A stretch of 40,803 nucleotides of DNA from Phycisphaerales bacterium (lineage in GTDB: Bacteria; Planctomycetota; Phycisphaerae; Phycisphaerales; SM1A02): positions 1 through 40,803 of the forward strand of contig SIAA01000016.1 in the NCBI GenBank assembly GCA_009692045.1, given 5' to 3'. Shown here in pieces: positions 7,037 to 19,005 of the stretch; the stretch's first letter is position 1; each line of letters begins with the position of its first letter. Below the pieces are notes generated by a model. The model searched no databases. It was not told the origin of the DNA and saw only the letters and a program-made list of their open reading frames with translations. Made by a program: the position numbers and the translations under genes.

Positions 7037-7996
7037 CTAACTGGGGAACAAGAGGCGAGCGCATTCGGAGTATCGATCGCGAGTTGCGGCAACGATGCTG
7101 GGAGGGATCGCCGGCCCTGGGGGTGACTTTGCCCACTTGCCCTGCGCCACCAGCCCGAGCAGGTAGTTGCGCAGAAACTGCTTGTCGAAACTGGGCTGAT
7201 CCCGCCCTGGCTCGTATCCCTCTAGCGGCCAATAGCGGCTCGAGTCGGGCGTGAGGACCTCATCGATCAGCAGCAACTCATCGGTCACTTCGCCCCGGCT
7301 GTCCAGAGCGAAACCAAACTCGAACTTGGTGTCGGCGAGAATCACGCCGCGTTTCAGAGCGTATTTTGCAGCGAGTCCATAGATGTTGAGAGTGATGGTG
7401 CGCAGCCGTTCCATCAGTGGCGTGCTGGTCAACTCGCAGGCATGCTCGAAAGAAATGTTTTCGTCGTGACCGACATCAGCCTTGGTGGATGGGGTGAATA
7501 TCGGTTCCTCGAGACGATCGCATTGCACGAGTCCTGGCCGCAAGCGGACGCCGCACACGCTGGCCGACTGGCGATACTCGTTCCAACCGCTGCCGGCGAG
7601 GTATCCCCGCGCCACGCATTCAATGGGGATCACCTTGGCGGCGCGGCAGACCATCACCCGACCTTCCAGCGATGCGCGCAGACTTTCGGGGGCGTAGGGG
7701 ATCTCCGGAACTTGATCGCTTATCAGGTGATCCTGGGCTACCTGATGAGTTCGCAGGTAGTCGAACCAGCCCATACTGATCGCAGTCAGCAGGCAGCCCT
7801 TGCCGGCAACGGGAGTGGGCATTACCACATCGAAAGCGCTGATGCGGTCTGTCGCCACAATTAGCAGTTGCTGGCCCGATCCCGTGTCAGGCAGCTGGTA
7901 GACATCGCGAACTTTGCCTCGCCTGCGCCCAGCGAATGGCAGCACTGTTTCAAAGACTGCTCTCTCAGCGGGGGCGCGAAGAACAAGGCGGCTCAT
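7037..7996 (-). CDS. purC: Phosphoribosylaminoimidazole-succinocarboxamide synthase (SAICAR synthetase)
   Basis: 319 residues, the longer form of the family (many bacterial PurC are about 240; the yeast-like form is about 300). It ligates aspartate to CAIR with ATP to give SAICAR in purine biosynthesis. Signatures seen: GKVRDVYQL near residue 27, DRISAFDVVMPTPVAGKG, the SAICAR signature around ECVARGYLAGSGW, EPIFTPSTKADVGHDENIS, and ILADTKFEFGF with the following IDEVLTPDSSRYW. The ATG at 7996 is the only start that keeps the family N-terminus. Its 3' end faces folD with 79 bp between the stops and no convincing terminator hairpin with a T-run there. Confidence 0.96.
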   Translation of the reverse strand: MSRLVLRAPAERAVFETVLPFAGRRRGKVRDVYQLPDTGSGQQLLIVATDRISAFDVVMPTPVAGKGCLLTAISMGWFDYLRTHQVAQDHLISDQVPEIPYAPESLRASLEGRVMVCRAAKVIPIECVARGYLAGSGWNEYRQSASVCGVRLRPGLVQCDRLEEPIFTPSTKADVGHDENISFEHACELTSTPLMERLRTITLNIYGLAAKYALKRGVILADTKFEFGFALDSRGEVTDELLLIDEVLTPDSSRYWPLEGYEPGRDQPSFDKQFLRNYLLGLVAQGKWAKSPPGPAIPPSIVAATRDRYSECARLLFPS

Positions 7997-8102
7997 CGCC
8001 GTGAGTGTACGGGGAAGGGGACGACTCCACGAATCGGATTGGCGGAGTGGTTACACTCACAATGCGCACGCTCTCCTCAATAAAGACGGCGCAAGGATGC
8101 CC

Positions 8103-9602
8103 ATGCTTCGTTTCGCGGTGTACGACCAGAGAGGGCCTGCCCGTCAGATGGCATTGCTTCAGGCCCACACGATTGGCGCCAGCGATGTGCCTGTCCGCAG
8201 CGAAATCGTCTTTGACAGTGGGATTGTTGAGTGCCGGTTCAAGGGTGCCGAGGCGGCCGCGCTCGAGTTGGGATATGAAGTCGGTGACGGCGGCAGGCTG
8301 ATGTTGCAAACCTGTCTGCTGGAGCAGCGCTCTGAGCCCTACCACTTGGCTCTGGAAATTGCCCGCAATCGCATAAAGATATTCATCGCTAAAGCGGAGG
8401 AGTGGTTGATGTGGGATCACCCTAGCGCGGTGGATGCCATCGCCGAGTGGGATCAGGCTAGGCAGCACTTCACCCACGCCATGACCGCATCAGATCCACT
8501 TGAGGCCGAGCGTTTCAGCCACAAAGCTCTGATATCGGCAGTGGAAGCGGCGGAGAAACTCGCGGTGGTCCACAGTGAAACCCTGCTTTCCCGCAAGTAC
8601 GGCCGCAAATCTGCGAGCGGGGGAATCATCGGTGTTCGCATCGACCCATCCACCGATCCCGCTAGGGCCGAGCCCTTTCTAGCCAGTTCTGGTTTGCTCA
8701 TCATTCAGACAAAGTGGAGCCAGTTAGAGCCATCCGAGGGCGCGCTCGATACGGCGGGCATCGACAGGTGGATTCACTGGGCAGCGCATAATCAGCGTCG
8801 CATCGTGATCGGGCCACTGATGGATTTCAGCCCGGGTTCCGTGCCGCCGTGGGCCGAGGCGCGCTGTAGTGATTTCGCGGCCTGCCGCGACCTTACATGG
8901 TCTTTCATGGAGCGGCTGGTCAAGCGCTACCACGACACAACCACACTCTGGATCATCGCCAGCGGGCTCAACACCAATGAGCGCTTCGGGTTTTCGCTGG
9001 AGCAGATGGTGGACCTTACTCGGCGTGCCTCCCTACTCGTGCGGCAGTCCCGCAATGGAGCCTGCAGCATCGTGGAAATCATCCAGCCATTCGCGGAGGA
9101 TGTGGCGCTTCGCAAGAATGCCATGACTCCCATTGCCTTTGTTGAGGCACTGCAGCAGGAGGGCATTCGCATTGATGCTCTAGGTGTGCAGTTCATCTTC
9201 GGTGAGAAGGGCCGAGGCCGAGTCGCCCGCGACCTGATGCAGGTGAGCTCGTTCCTCGATCGACTTGTGCCTCTGGATCTGCCGGTGATGGTCACGGGAT
9301 TTGCCGTCCCTAGTGGTGCGGAAGGAACCGGTGGCGGTCGGTGGCATGGGGCATGGTGCCCCGAGCTGCAGGCGAACTGGTGTCAGTCGATGCTGTCGAT
9401 CACTCTCGGCCGACCCTGGGTTGAATCGGCGGTGTGGTCCCAGCTGTTTGACAGCCCGGGAGATGGCCCTCGCTATGGATTGGTGAGCACCTCGGGTACG
9501 CCGCGTCCGGTTTGTGCCGTGCTCGGTCGAGTCCTCGAGCGGCTGCGGAAGCCAGTGAAGCCCGCGGGCAAGTCGACGCATAGCAAGCCTAAGCAGATGT
9601 AG
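8103..9602 (+). CDS. GH10 xylanase-like TIM-barrel protein of a planctomycete family, probable non-hydrolase
   Basis: 499 residues from the ATG at 8103, which has AAGGA at 8093-8097 as a ribosome binding site; an ATG at 8097 overlaps that site and is less likely. There is no signal peptide. Residues 1-170 form a family-specific N-terminal part (opening MLRFAVYDQRGPAR, with RLMLQTCLL near 66-74). From about 175 on, the pattern GIIGVRIDP, WSQLEPSEG and IDRWIHWA follows the first strands of a GH10 barrel. I recall similar proteins annotated as endo-1,4-beta-xylanase in Phycisphaerae. At the strand-4 site, where GH10 has an Asn-Glu acid/base pair, the sequence reads WIIASGLN (283-290); at strand 7, where GH10 has Thr-Glu-Leu, it reads VTGFAV (397-402). 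Both catalytic glutamates are glycine, so ordinary xylan hydrolysis is unlikely. Function unknown. Confidence 0.75.
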   Translation: MLRFAVYDQRGPARQMALLQAHTIGASDVPVRSEIVFDSGIVECRFKGAEAAALELGYEVGDGGRLMLQTCLLEQRSEPYHLALEIARNRIKIFIAKAEEWLMWDHPSAVDAIAEWDQARQHFTHAMTASDPLEAERFSHKALISAVEAAEKLAVVHSETLLSRKYGRKSASGGIIGVRIDPSTDPARAEPFLASSGLLIIQTKWSQLEPSEGALDTAGIDRWIHWAAHNQRRIVIGPLMDFSPGSVPPWAEARCSDFAACRDLTWSFMERLVKRYHDTTTLWIIASGLNTNERFGFSLEQMVDLTRRASLLVRQSRNGACSIVEIIQPFAEDVALRKNAMTPIAFVEALQQEGIRIDALGVQFIFGEKGRGRVARDLMQVSSFLDRLVPLDLPVMVTGFAVPSGAEGTGGGRWHGAWCPELQANWCQSMLSITLGRPWVESAVWSQLFDSPGDGPRYGLVSTSGTPRPVCAVLGRVLERLRKPVKPAGKSTHSKPKQM

Positions 9603-9604
9603 GC

Positions 9605-9994
9605 ATGCGACGACTCGTCATGATTCCTCATCCGGTTGTCATCGGCGTGCTCGGATTGGCGCTCGCGGCCTTGAGCATCATCGGGGTCTGGGAACTCGTG
9701 GGCAAAGAGCTCTGTGACTCTCGCCGCGGTGCAGCTGAGGTGACCCTACTGTTTGCGATGCCCCCCATCGATCTCAACACCGCAACACCTAATGAACTGG
9801 CAATGCTGCCGGGAGTAGGCCCAGCACTCGCAGCGCGCATTGATGCGCATCGGCGTGAGAGGGGGTTGTTCGCCTGTGTTGAGGATGTGGATGCCGTCGA
9901 GGGTATTGGTCCCGTACTTCTGGAGCGAATGCGGCCATTCGTCTGCGTTTCATTGGGGCAAGTCCCGGCGGCGCCGCTAGCACAGCTAGACTGA
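9605..9994 (+). CDS. ComEA-like helix-hairpin-helix protein with membrane anchor
   Basis: 129 residues. One hydrophobic segment (about residues 8-30) after two arginines suggests an N-terminal membrane anchor with the rest outside. Residues 54-112 carry two helix-hairpin-helix motifs: DLNTATPNELAMLPGVGPALAARI, split as a first hairpin around LPGVGPALA, and a second around VEGIGPVLLERM. This is the arrangement of ComEA, the DNA receptor for transformation, and of related small secretion-linked HhH proteins. Only the HhH and membrane anchor are supported; no other competence gene is in the window. It starts 2 bp after the stop of the xylanase-like gene and is followed by mfd 34 bp on, so it is likely part of one rightward transcript. 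Confidence 0.8.
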   Translation: MRRLVMIPHPVVIGVLGLALAALSIIGVWELVGKELCDSRRGAAEVTLLFAMPPIDLNTATPNELAMLPGVGPALAARIDAHRRERGLFACVEDVDAVEGIGPVLLERMRPFVCVSLGQVPAAPLAQLD

Positions 9995-10028
9995 ACTCAC
10001 GCTCTCGACATTGGGTGCGGTCTCTCAG

Positions 10029-13000
10029 ATGGATTGGTTCGATCGAATCCTTGCCAGTGGCACCATGGCGCGTTTGCGGACGCGCGTGGCGGGAGGAGGT
10101 CTGTTCACAGCGGGCCCAATTCACGGCTCAGCGCCCCGCGTGGTGAGTTGCGCGCTGTCGAAGAGCGTGCCCGGCTGCGTCCTGCTGATTGTCGCCCATC
10201 TCGATGAGGCCGATGAAGCCTTGCAGGAGTGCGCCAGTCTTGGTGTTGAGGCTGTTGTGCTCCCTGCTCTGGAAGGGACGGGAGCCACAGAAGCGAGTGT
10301 GCAGCGACTGCTGCTGCAGTCGAGGCTTGCTTCTCCACCGGCGATCATCATCGCATCAATCGCAGCGATCATGCAGAGGATGCCGCCTGCAAGTTCCATC
10401 AAGGACTTGCTGAGGGTGCTGAAGCGGGGAGAGACCTGCCCACCAGCGGCGCTCATGGAGTGGCTCATTGCGGCGGGTTACCTGCGTTCACTTTCGGTTG
10501 AGGAGCAAGGGCAGTTCGCCAGACGAGGGGGCATCATCGATCTCTATCCATTCACGGCATCGACGCCGCTGCGCATCGAGTTTGACGGAGATGAGATAGA
10601 GCGCGTGTGCGAGATCGATCTGGCGACGCAGGCGAGTGATCGTGAGGTTCTCAGCGCAGTCTGCGCCTCAGGCGCGGATGGTGTCGCCATCTCCGAGCAC
10701 GGGTCCAACCTTGCCGAGTTGCTGCCGCGCAACTCCGTGGCAGTAATCGCCGATCTGCATGAGGTAGCGGAGCAGGGGCGTGGTTACTGGGAGCGCGCCA
10801 CAGACGCACGGTGCTTGGAGGATGGTCCAGCGGTGATCGCAGCTCTTACCAAGCACTGCGCTGCGGTAGTCGTGTTCGACGCCACCGATCCCAAGGCTGA
10901 AATATCGCTCCCGACTGGGCCGCTGCCCACGTTCTCTGACGACATTCCCAAGGCGATGTTCGAGATCGCGCAACTCTCCGCAGGCGCGCGCGTCACCATT
11001 CTGTGCGATACATCGGGTGAGAGAACTCGCGCGGACGAGCTGTTGCGGGAACATGCCCCAGGGGCAGAAGTGCGCGCCGTGGAACAGCATCTGCACCGGG
11101 GATTCCGCTGGGAGTTCGAGGATGATGAGCTGGATGCGACTCGATCGGGATCCTCTGGGCAGGTTGCCGCGCTGAGCGAGTTGATTGTGCCCCAACACGA
11201 ACTGCTGCACAAATGGGGAGTGCGCCGCCGCGGCGCCGCCGCGCCATCATCGCGCGCCCGCGAGGCATTCCTCCACTTCGAGCCCGGCGACCATGTAGTG
11301 CACCGCGATCACGGCATCGGCCGTTACACAGGACTCTGCCGACTCCCCGGTGCTGATGGCATCCTGCGGGAGGAGGAGTATCTAAGCATTGAGTATGCCA
11401 GCGGGGCACAGGTGCATGTGCCCCTGGTAAAGGTGGCTCTGGTGCAGAAGTATGTCGGCGCTGGTGCTGCTGGGATCAATCTCTCGACGCTCGGTGGCAA
11501 GCGCTGGAAGGCGCAGAAGGAGGAGGTTGAGTCGGCGGTGCGGGACATGGCTGGGGAGTTGCTGCGTGTACAGGCGGTGCGGGACTCAACTTCCGGATTC
11601 GCGTTCCCAGCGGATCACGCTTGGCAGCAGGAGTTCGAAGCAGAGTTCCCCTTTGAAGAGACACCTGATCAAAAGGTGGCCATCATTGCCACTAAACGGG
11701 ATATGGAACGCCAGCGCCCGATGGATCGTCTGGTGTGCGGCGATGTTGGCTTCGGCAAGACAGAAATCGCCGTGCGCGCCGCCTTCAAGGCTGTTGCTGC
11801 GGGCTGGCAGGTTGCGGTTCTCGTCCCCACCACTATTCTCGCTGAGCAGCACGAACGCACCTTTCGCGATCGCTTTCGAGCCTATCCGTTTCGGATCGAA
11901 TGCCTGAGCAGGTTCCGGTCCACCTCGGAAACGAGGGATGTTCTGGAGCAGACCGCGGCGGGCAAGGTTGATGTGCTGGTAGGGACGCATCGACTGCTGT
12001 CTGCCGATGTCGCCTTCAAGAGTCTGGGCCTAATCGTAGTAGACGAGGAACAGCGCTTCGGTGTGGAGCACAAGCAACGACTGCTGCAGCTGCGGGTGAC
12101 CGCCGATGTGTTGACCCTTTCGGCCACCCCGATTCCCCGCACCCTGCACATGGCCATGCTCGGACTGCGCGATATCTCGAGTCTGACTACGCCGCCTCTG
12201 GATCGGCGCGCTATTGTCACCGAGGTGATTCCCTTCGATGAGGATCGTCTGGCCGCTGCGCTGGCGAGAGAACTCTCGCGCGAAGGACAGGTGTTCTGGG
12301 TGCACAACCGCGTCTATGACATTGACGAGGCTGCAGATCGGGTGCGCCGACTCGCCCCTTCGGCTCGCATTGCGGTTGGTCATGGGCAGATGCCCGATGC
12401 CGAACTTGAGGCGACCATGGTCCGCTTCTTGCGCCGCGAGGCCGACATCCTCGTCTCAACAACAATCATCGAGAGTGGGCTGGACATCGCCACCGCCAAC
12501 ACCATGATCATCGAGCAGGCGAGCCACTTCGGGCTCTCCGAGTTGCACCAGTTGCGCGGTCGGATAGGGCGGGGAAGTAATCGGGCCTATTGCTACATGC
12601 TGCTGCCCGAGGGCAAGCCCATCACCGCTGATGGTCTCAAGCGGCTGCGCGCGATCGAGGATTACAGCATGCTGGGCGCGGGATTCCGCATCGCCGTGCG
12701 TGATCTGGAGATTCGCGGCGCGGGAAACCTGCTGGGCGCAGAGCAGTCGGGGCACATCGCCGCGGTGGGCTACGAGATGTACTGCCAGATGTTGGAAGCT
12801 GCCGTGGGAGATCTGCGCCATGAGGTACGGTTGCAGCCTCTCGACACTGTTGTTGCCATCGGGCTGGGAGGAACAATTCCGCGTTCATGGATTCCCAGCG
12901 ATCGTCGCCGGTTGGAAGCGTGCCGTCGCCTGGGCTGCGCAGCGACGGTCAAGGAAGTGGAGACAATCTCCGCGGAGTTGGAGAGCGCCTACGGTTCAGT

Positions 13001-13283
13001 TCCGGAAGCTGCGACGGAACTGCTGTTGTTGATGAGTGTGCGGATTGCCGCCACCGCGCGCGGGGTCAGATCAATCGTGATCAGAGACAGAGACATCGTG
13101 ATTCGCGCGCGGCGTCCCGCAGAGGTGCTCTGTGCACTCGCCGGAATCCAAGGGGGCGCGCGAGCGGTGGGGCAGCCCGACCAGTCGGGTGAGCAGGACA
13201 TTTATTGGCGAGCGCCCCCGGCATTTCACGAGCCCATGTCTTTGGGTAACGCTCTTAGGCGCCGATTTGACGCCGGGAGTTGA
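10029..13283 (+). CDS. mfd: Transcription-repair coupling factor
   Basis: 1084 residues from the ATG at 10029; a TTG at 10011 in the same frame is an alternative giving 6 more residues. Mfd removes stalled RNA polymerase at DNA lesions and recruits UvrA. Visible parts in order: a UvrB-homology N-terminal region (about 1-330, with ARRGGIIDLYPF near 160), the RNA-polymerase-interacting CarD-like domain (EPGDHVVHRDHGIGRYTGL near 418), the translocase with Walker A CGDVGFGKT near 570, the DEEQ box near 671, SATPIPRT near 697, helicase motifs V/VI around QLRGRIGRG, and a C-terminal TRCF domain. The length is slightly below the usual 1100-1180. The 3' end faces the TSCPD gene with 44 bp between stops. 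Confidence 0.96.
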   Translation: MDWFDRILASGTMARLRTRVAGGGLFTAGPIHGSAPRVVSCALSKSVPGCVLLIVAHLDEADEALQECASLGVEAVVLPALEGTGATEASVQRLLLQSRLASPPAIIIASIAAIMQRMPPASSIKDLLRVLKRGETCPPAALMEWLIAAGYLRSLSVEEQGQFARRGGIIDLYPFTASTPLRIEFDGDEIERVCEIDLATQASDREVLSAVCASGADGVAISEHGSNLAELLPRNSVAVIADLHEVAEQGRGYWERATDARCLEDGPAVIAALTKHCAAVVVFDATDPKAEISLPTGPLPTFSDDIPKAMFEIAQLSAGARVTILCDTSGERTRADELLREHAPGAEVRAVEQHLHRGFRWEFEDDELDATRSGSSGQVAALSELIVPQHELLHKWGVRRRGAAAPSSRAREAFLHFEPGDHVVHRDHGIGRYTGLCRLPGADGILREEEYLSIEYASGAQVHVPLVKVALVQKYVGAGAAGINLSTLGGKRWKAQKEEVESAVRDMAGELLRVQAVRDSTSGFAFPADHAWQQEFEAEFPFEETPDQKVAIIATKRDMERQRPMDRLVCGDVGFGKTEIAVRAAFKAVAAGWQVAVLVPTTILAEQHERTFRDRFRAYPFRIECLSRFRSTSETRDVLEQTAAGKVDVLVGTHRLLSADVAFKSLGLIVVDEEQRFGVEHKQRLLQLRVTADVLTLSATPIPRTLHMAMLGLRDISSLTTPPLDRRAIVTEVIPFDEDRLAAALARELSREGQVFWVHNRVYDIDEAADRVRRLAPSARIAVGHGQMPDAELEATMVRFLRREADILVSTTIIESGLDIATANTMIIEQASHFGLSELHQLRGRIGRGSNRAYCYMLLPEGKPITADGLKRLRAIEDYSMLGAGFRIAVRDLEIRGAGNLLGAEQSGHIAAVGYEMYCQMLEAAVGDLRHEVRLQPLDTVVAIGLGGTIPRSWIPSDRRRLEACRRLGCAATVKEVETISAELESAYGSVPEAATELLLLMSVRIAATARGVRSIVIRDRDIVIRARRPAEVLCALAGIQGGARAVGQPDQSGEQDIYWRAPPAFHEPMSLGNALRRRFDAGS

Positions 13284-18934: not shown

Positions 18935-19005
18935 CTGGCCCGCCTAGATTCGAACTAGGACCAGAAGGACCAAAACCTTCTGTGCTACCTTTACACCACG
19001 GGCCA
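18935..19005 (-). tRNA. tRNA-Gln (anticodon TTG)
   Basis: A complete 71-nt cloverleaf reads leftward from 19005. The acceptor stem TGGCCCG (5', 19005-18999) pairs with CGGGCCA (18942-18936). The D arm is GTGT-loop-GCAC. The anticodon stem GAAGG/CCTTC encloses the 7-nt loop TTTTGGT, giving anticodon TTG at 18973-18971. The T arm CCTAG-TTCGAAT-CTAGG is canonical. The U1-A72 pair and G73 discriminator are normal glutamine identity elements. CCA is not encoded (TTC follows G73), so a CCA-adding enzyme is required. It is the first element of the leftward glmU-prs-rplY block. Confidence 0.96.

Follow-up and report, generated by a model that had tools for sequence, protein, structure and literature searches.

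Enzymes of glycoside hydrolase family GH10 carry an acid/base glutamate after strand 4 of the barrel, in the motif 'NE', and a nucleophile glutamate on strand 7, in the motif 'TE'. In another glycosidase family, GH1, beta-Klotho is a dead domain that serves as a receptor. Planctomycetes have an unusual cell biology and many conserved genes of unknown role. We describe here a planctomycete protein, encoded in a window of 40,803 nucleotides (the whole stretch of DNA that was analysed), which shares with the GH10 endo-xylanases (PF00331; 8b73, 1vbr, 1ta3) the (beta/alpha)8 barrel, sequence homology and scaffold residues. It differs from these enzymes in having lost both glutamates and most sugar-site residues, in lacking a signal peptide, in carrying an extra N-terminal beta and three-helix region, and in being a near-universal core gene. 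It also matches beta-Klotho structurally (Z 27.1 over 301 residues), and both are clan-A glycosidase barrels, the one turned to binding. However, beta-Klotho belongs to a different GH family and is eukaryotic and extracellular, and the likeness is a parallel in which kinship is not shown by sequence.

A glycosidase fold is used for protein binding in XIP-type xylanase inhibitor proteins as well, according to PMC12329526; these differ from the present protein in being GH18-like, of plant origin and inhibitors of xylanases. A search of an open-access library by title or abstract opening found no described dead GH10 family in planctomycetes. Xylan and glycosidases go unmentioned in the available part of the main text of a P. 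limnophila essential-gene paper (PMC10632474), as do glycosidases in the available part of a pseudoenzyme review (PMC10211241). GH10 counts serve to infer planctomycete ecology, as set out in PMC4807772. Counting the pseudo-GH10 protein as a xylanase inflates inventories of polysaccharide degradation. Nearly all sampled genomes of two classes carry its gene, whose sequence is at odds with the enzyme label under which it goes.

Fold and catalytic positions of the pseudo-GH10 protein

The gene was taken to begin at the ATG at 8103, which the family alignment shows to be the conserved start, most homologues beginning there with ML(R/K/Q)F; an in-frame TTG is also present upstream at 7914. An AF2 model built with a 63-sequence alignment as input (pLDDT 94.0, pTM 0.92) resolved a beta domain, three helices and an eight-stranded barrel (Table 1). 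Membership of GH10 as a fold and sequence family was supported by Pfam, by profile matches to the PDB and by Foldseek/VIA. The Pfam GH10 score of the window protein (22.8 bits) lies just above the cut-off of 22.1, and GH10 was assigned to all 63 members scanned (best E 1.1e-15). A profile of these 63 members matched solved GH10 enzymes, with 1ta3 at E 6.5e-16, and the best solved structural match to the model was the GH10 xylanase 8b73 (8b73_A; Z 30.5, rmsd 3.2, 304 residues aligned, model range 160-486). No solved structure of the pseudo-GH10 family itself was among the PDB matches. Assignment to the GH35/GH42 beta-galactosidases was rejected, the window protein scoring far under the cut-offs (NF051902, 11.3 bits against 500; PF02449, 12.6 against 21); the best NCBIfam E values among 18 members were 1e-05 (GH35) and 4.8e-08 (a xylanase/feruloyl esterase model). 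In its own genome (2.17 Mb), the pseudo-GH10 protein is the only Pfam GH10 match.

Table 1. Features of the pseudo-GH10 gene and its upstream neighbour, in window coordinates.
Feature	Position	Strand	Evidence
Pseudo-GH10 protein, 499 aa	8103..9602	+	Translation, family alignment, Pfam GH10 22.8 bits, AF2 model
N-terminal beta domain, residues 1-70	8103..8312	+	DSSP strands 2-5, 22-24, 33-38, 41-46, 52-59, 64-69
Three-helix domain, residues 82-166	8346..8600	+	Model and conservation
GH10-type (beta/alpha)8 barrel, residues 176-481	8628..9545	+	Profile and structure matches, model
Gly237; His in 17/18 paralogues (strand 3)	8811..8813	+	Column alignment
Ser287; Asn (N of strand-4 'NE') in 18/18 paralogues	8961..8963	+	Column alignment
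Gly288 at acid/base Glu position, end of strand 4	8964..8966	+	Translation, profile, alignments
Gly399 at nucleophile Glu position, strand 7	9297..9299	+	Translation, profile, alignments
purC (SAICAR synthase), recurrent divergent neighbour	7037..7996	-	Pfam SAICAR_synt E 4.8e-71; NCBIfam PRK13961 358.6 bits
Intergenic region of 106 bp between purC and the divergent pseudo-GH10 gene	7997..8102	.	ORF coordinates

The first-pass annotation, made from the DNA letters, had claimed glycine at both catalytic glutamate positions, and the reading frame, its coordinates and the two codons (8964-8966 and 9297-9299) proved correct. The protein reads Ser287-Gly288 in 'LWIIASGLN' and Thr398-Gly399 in 'PVMVTGFAV'. 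Alignment of the 63-member profile with 1vbr set the strand-4 'NE' over Ser287-Gly288 and the strand-7 'TE' over Thr398-Gly399; at strand 4 the printed alignment ends just before 'NE' and was read on by extending its ungapped register. In the model, Gly288 directly follows strand 4 (282-287) and Gly399 lies within strand 7 (395-401). Both placements come from profile and strand register and not from an atom-by-atom overlay.

The replacement extends across the family. After removal of incomplete, identical and near-identical rows, the 185 matched loci gave an alignment of 118 (114 family members and 4 sister proteins). None of the 114 has glutamate at position 288, and a single one (L032), which has glycine at 288, has it at 399. 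Of the 99 members of the type found in the class of the source genome, 91 have Gly and 8 have Ser at position 288, indicating that the loss of glutamate is not due to chance; in those of the other class (n=15) the position holds Arg in 6, Gly in 4 and Ala, Ser, Phe, Pro or Asn in one each. At position 399, Ala, Gly, Ser or a gap predominates; one member (L101) has Asp, and all 15 members of the other class have a gap. A control alignment recovered both glutamates in 18 of 18 planctomycete GH10 paralogues and in three of the four sisters, the fourth having Glu/Lys; the possibility of intact glutamates hidden by misalignment was rejected on the strength of the paralogues. The family alignment that the first-pass annotation had proposed as a check thus came out in its favour, and neither outcome that it had named as contrary was encountered: sequence profile and strand register place no intact glutamate at the active site, and no member with demonstrated activity was found in solved structures or in the literature searched. 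Its warning that an endo-xylanase label would mislead is likewise justified, as Pfam calls GH10 although both catalytic glutamates are gone.

We then consider columns 237, 241, 287, 325, 363, 365, 446 and 453, which form the GH10 sugar subsite and in which the His/Asn/Gln/His/Trp set conserved in GH10 enzymes is not kept. Column 237, His in 17 paralogues, is Gly in 36 and Ser in one of 37 family members, and column 287 changes from Asn in paralogues to Ser, Ala, Gly or Thr. The Trp241, Asn325, His365, Trp446 and Trp453 columns are largely lost, and Gln363 is retained in 6 of 37 members, the window protein included. The scaffold residues Gly177, Trp205, Pro248, Trp250, Trp283 and Asp450 are retained. 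The earlier statement that the surrounding barrel motifs are kept therefore holds for the scaffold but not for most other sugar-site residues. With most of these replaced, the protein is more than a xylanase that has lost its catalysis and kept its xylan cleft; judged from the aligned columns, the cleft is rebuilt and not merely disarmed.

Distribution, selection and ancestry

The family was matched in all 148 sampled genomes of its own class, and in 146 of them the match clearly belongs to the family; the two weak matches (G582, E 1.4e-6; G609, E 5.2e-5) are probably paralogues. In a second sampled class, which we infer to be Planctomycetia, it is present in 146 of 148 genomes. Among relatives it was found in 58 of 61, and in 52 of 52 of those at least 90% complete. 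Phylum-wide, 128 of 294 genomes had a match at E<=0.001, a count that includes weak matches to paralogues. One typical member of this planctomycete family (L113, WYBR01000062.1) comes from a record titled Vicinamibacteraceae. This title may be wrong, since a similar record (L119) bears the title uncultured planctomycete. In 14 close pairs dN/dS was 0.028-0.186, showing that the family is under strong purifying selection. The protein is thus a homologue of an active enzyme family that lacks the catalytic residues and is upheld by selection across species, as expected of a pseudoenzyme.

No signal peptide was detected in the window protein or in the members tested, using Kyte-Doolittle hydrophobicity over the first 60 residues. 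The maximum 15-residue mean was 0.81 in the window protein compared to 2.83 in a secreted relative, and the highest value among the 114 family members was 1.85, with no strongly hydrophobic stretch. These data bear out the predictions of a conserved family and of a protein without a signal peptide, which is apparently located inside the cell.

In a midpoint-rooted tree of the barrel, all 37 sampled family members grouped in a single clade with a support of 0.996, separate from the paralogues and sister proteins (22 in all). Given this single clade, the simplest account places the catalytic loss in a common ancestor of both classes. The sister GH10 proteins (L050/L185 and L183, and partly L182) resemble the family in their N-terminal beta/helical region, in PWGE-like and RD motifs and in the lack of a strong signal peptide. 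They differ in that L050/L185 and L183 retain 'NE' and 'TE', with Glu/Lys in L182, that the T70-R76-Y80-R88 motif of the dead family is missing, and that purC adjoins none of three loci. In L182 (G103:C116) the acid/base glutamate is kept ('WEIANEMH') and the nucleophile position holds lysine ('WITKMG'); L183, 61% identical to it, has the nucleophile glutamate, which makes L182 a second, separate loss.

The N-terminal region gave a confident model when residues 1-171 were modelled alone (pLDDT 95), and this model had no PDB match at E<=0.001. The VIA structure list for the region consisted mostly of three-helix matches (best Z 10.9, 8s2f), possibly reflecting just a common arrangement. On the basis of these models, the beta and three-helix region (8103-8615) may be an undescribed domain. 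All 114 members have E85 and R88 in the first helix, and the motif T70..L73..R76..P79-Y80..R88..W101 sets the dead family apart from the sister proteins. The N-terminal domain had been described as the protein's own; the region is indeed present, but it is not unique to the dead family. Since sisters with intact glutamates have a similar N-terminal architecture, this domain order is older than the loss of the catalytic site.

A probable binding role and its alternatives

We consider it fairly likely that the family is a core, usually single-copy cytosolic pseudo-glycosidase whose site was lost before the two classes split and which acts by binding or scaffolding; it probably does a housekeeping job by binding rather than cutting. 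This agrees broadly with the first-pass annotation, which had suggested a binding or scaffolding protein, and adds to it the loss of most of the sugar subsite, the near-universal presence in two classes and the recurrence of purC as divergent neighbour. In the proposed sequence of events, an ancestor would have combined the N-terminal beta/helical region with a GH10 barrel and lost its catalytic site before the two planctomycete classes diverged. Alignment and tree show that both glutamates and most other sugar-site residues were replaced along this path, and the dead protein was retained under strong purifying selection. Glycoside hydrolysis is most likely gone. Binding of a protein partner or a small cytosolic ligand would fall to the C-terminal face of the barrel, as remodelled, and to the family-specific motif T70-R76-Y80-E85-R88, giving the protein the role of a scaffold or sensor. 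Confirmation of a binding role would mean that a pseudo-glycosidase derived from GH10 belongs to the core physiology of bacteria, and its link to purine synthesis could be tested.

Conservation within the barrel bears on this proposal in both directions. In its favour, a JSD above 0.7 was reached by 17 of 120 columns in C-face loops, as against none of the 33 columns of N-face loops, 6 of 106 helix columns and 4 of 47 strand columns. Against it, the C-face loops (mean conservation 0.418) did not exceed the N-face loops (0.428), and many conserved C-face residues (PWGE, RD, Q..W) also occur in the sister proteins and may therefore be structural. The same face is central to an alternative that we regard as unlikely, in which the protein is a repurposed enzyme with some other activity, its catalytic residues having migrated to the C-terminal face (e.g. 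E332, D377, D450). At 332, 377 and 450 an acidic residue is kept in at least 80% of both groups, and near-universal conservation is typical of enzymes and scaffolds alike. However, most of the four sisters have these residues too, so that they look inherited, which argues against a newly built catalytic pair.

It is very unlikely that the dead enzyme persists as a lectin whose former cleft has kept its affinity for xylan-like oligosaccharides. The GH10 fold is confirmed and the barrel aromatics W205, W250, W283 and W445 are retained, but the sugar-site columns 237, 241, 287, 325, 365, 446 and 453 are mostly replaced and a protein with no signal peptide has no access to extracellular xylan. Still more improbable is an active GH10-like hydrolase of unusual mechanism, with a glutamate supplied elsewhere or by the substrate: the protein does score as a member of Pfam GH10 and L032 has glutamate in the 399 column, yet 113 of 114 members have neither glutamate, L032 itself has glycine at 288, and the sugar-site residues are gone. 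Finally, the window protein does deviate from its relatives at some positions that the family conserves (e.g. S27, T217, A331). A decaying pseudogene or annotation artefact is nonetheless highly improbable, since nearly all genomes have long intact frames, dN/dS is far under 1 and presence is near-universal.

The purC pairing and other neighbouring genes

Turning to the neighbourhood of the pseudo-GH10 gene, purC recurs as a divergent upstream partner. Counts were made in hand-picked representatives of the genomes with matches, not in a random draw. Of 23 loci in the own order, 19 have purC divergent upstream, and in 18 of these the two starts lie within 400 bp of each other. None of five loci from other orders of the own class has this arrangement. 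In the other class it occurs in 18 of 29 loci, at no more than 500 bp in 17; a contig end cuts one of the 29. It is absent from all three sister-protein loci, one of which has only ~1.5 kb of contig upstream. The pairing is therefore not obligatory, being found in 0 of 5 other-order loci and missing in 11 of 29 loci of the other class. Across 15 loci (L036-L050) whose genes were called by a simple longest-ORF procedure, purC occurred anywhere in the locus in 10, compared to at most 2 of 15 for the other gene clusters that were seen in at least 8 loci overall (numbers 2-14).

This recurrent divergent pairing hints that expression or function of the family might be tied to nucleotide supply. A stronger version would make the stripped xylanase barrel a core cytosolic protein that regulates or scaffolds purine synthesis, with PurC as its partner or target. 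This seems to us quite unlikely; were it true, a pseudo-glycosidase would be built into central metabolism. An RNA element between the two genes was also considered and rejected, no Rfam family reaching the gathering threshold in 7997..8102. The single Rfam match of the window is a tRNA at 18935-19005 on the reverse strand. Downstream of the pseudo-GH10 gene, the window encodes a ComEA-like helix-hairpin-helix protein (9605-9994, forward strand) followed by mfd (10011-13283, forward strand), and comEA-like and mfd genes follow it in this order in many loci, all of them from the own class.
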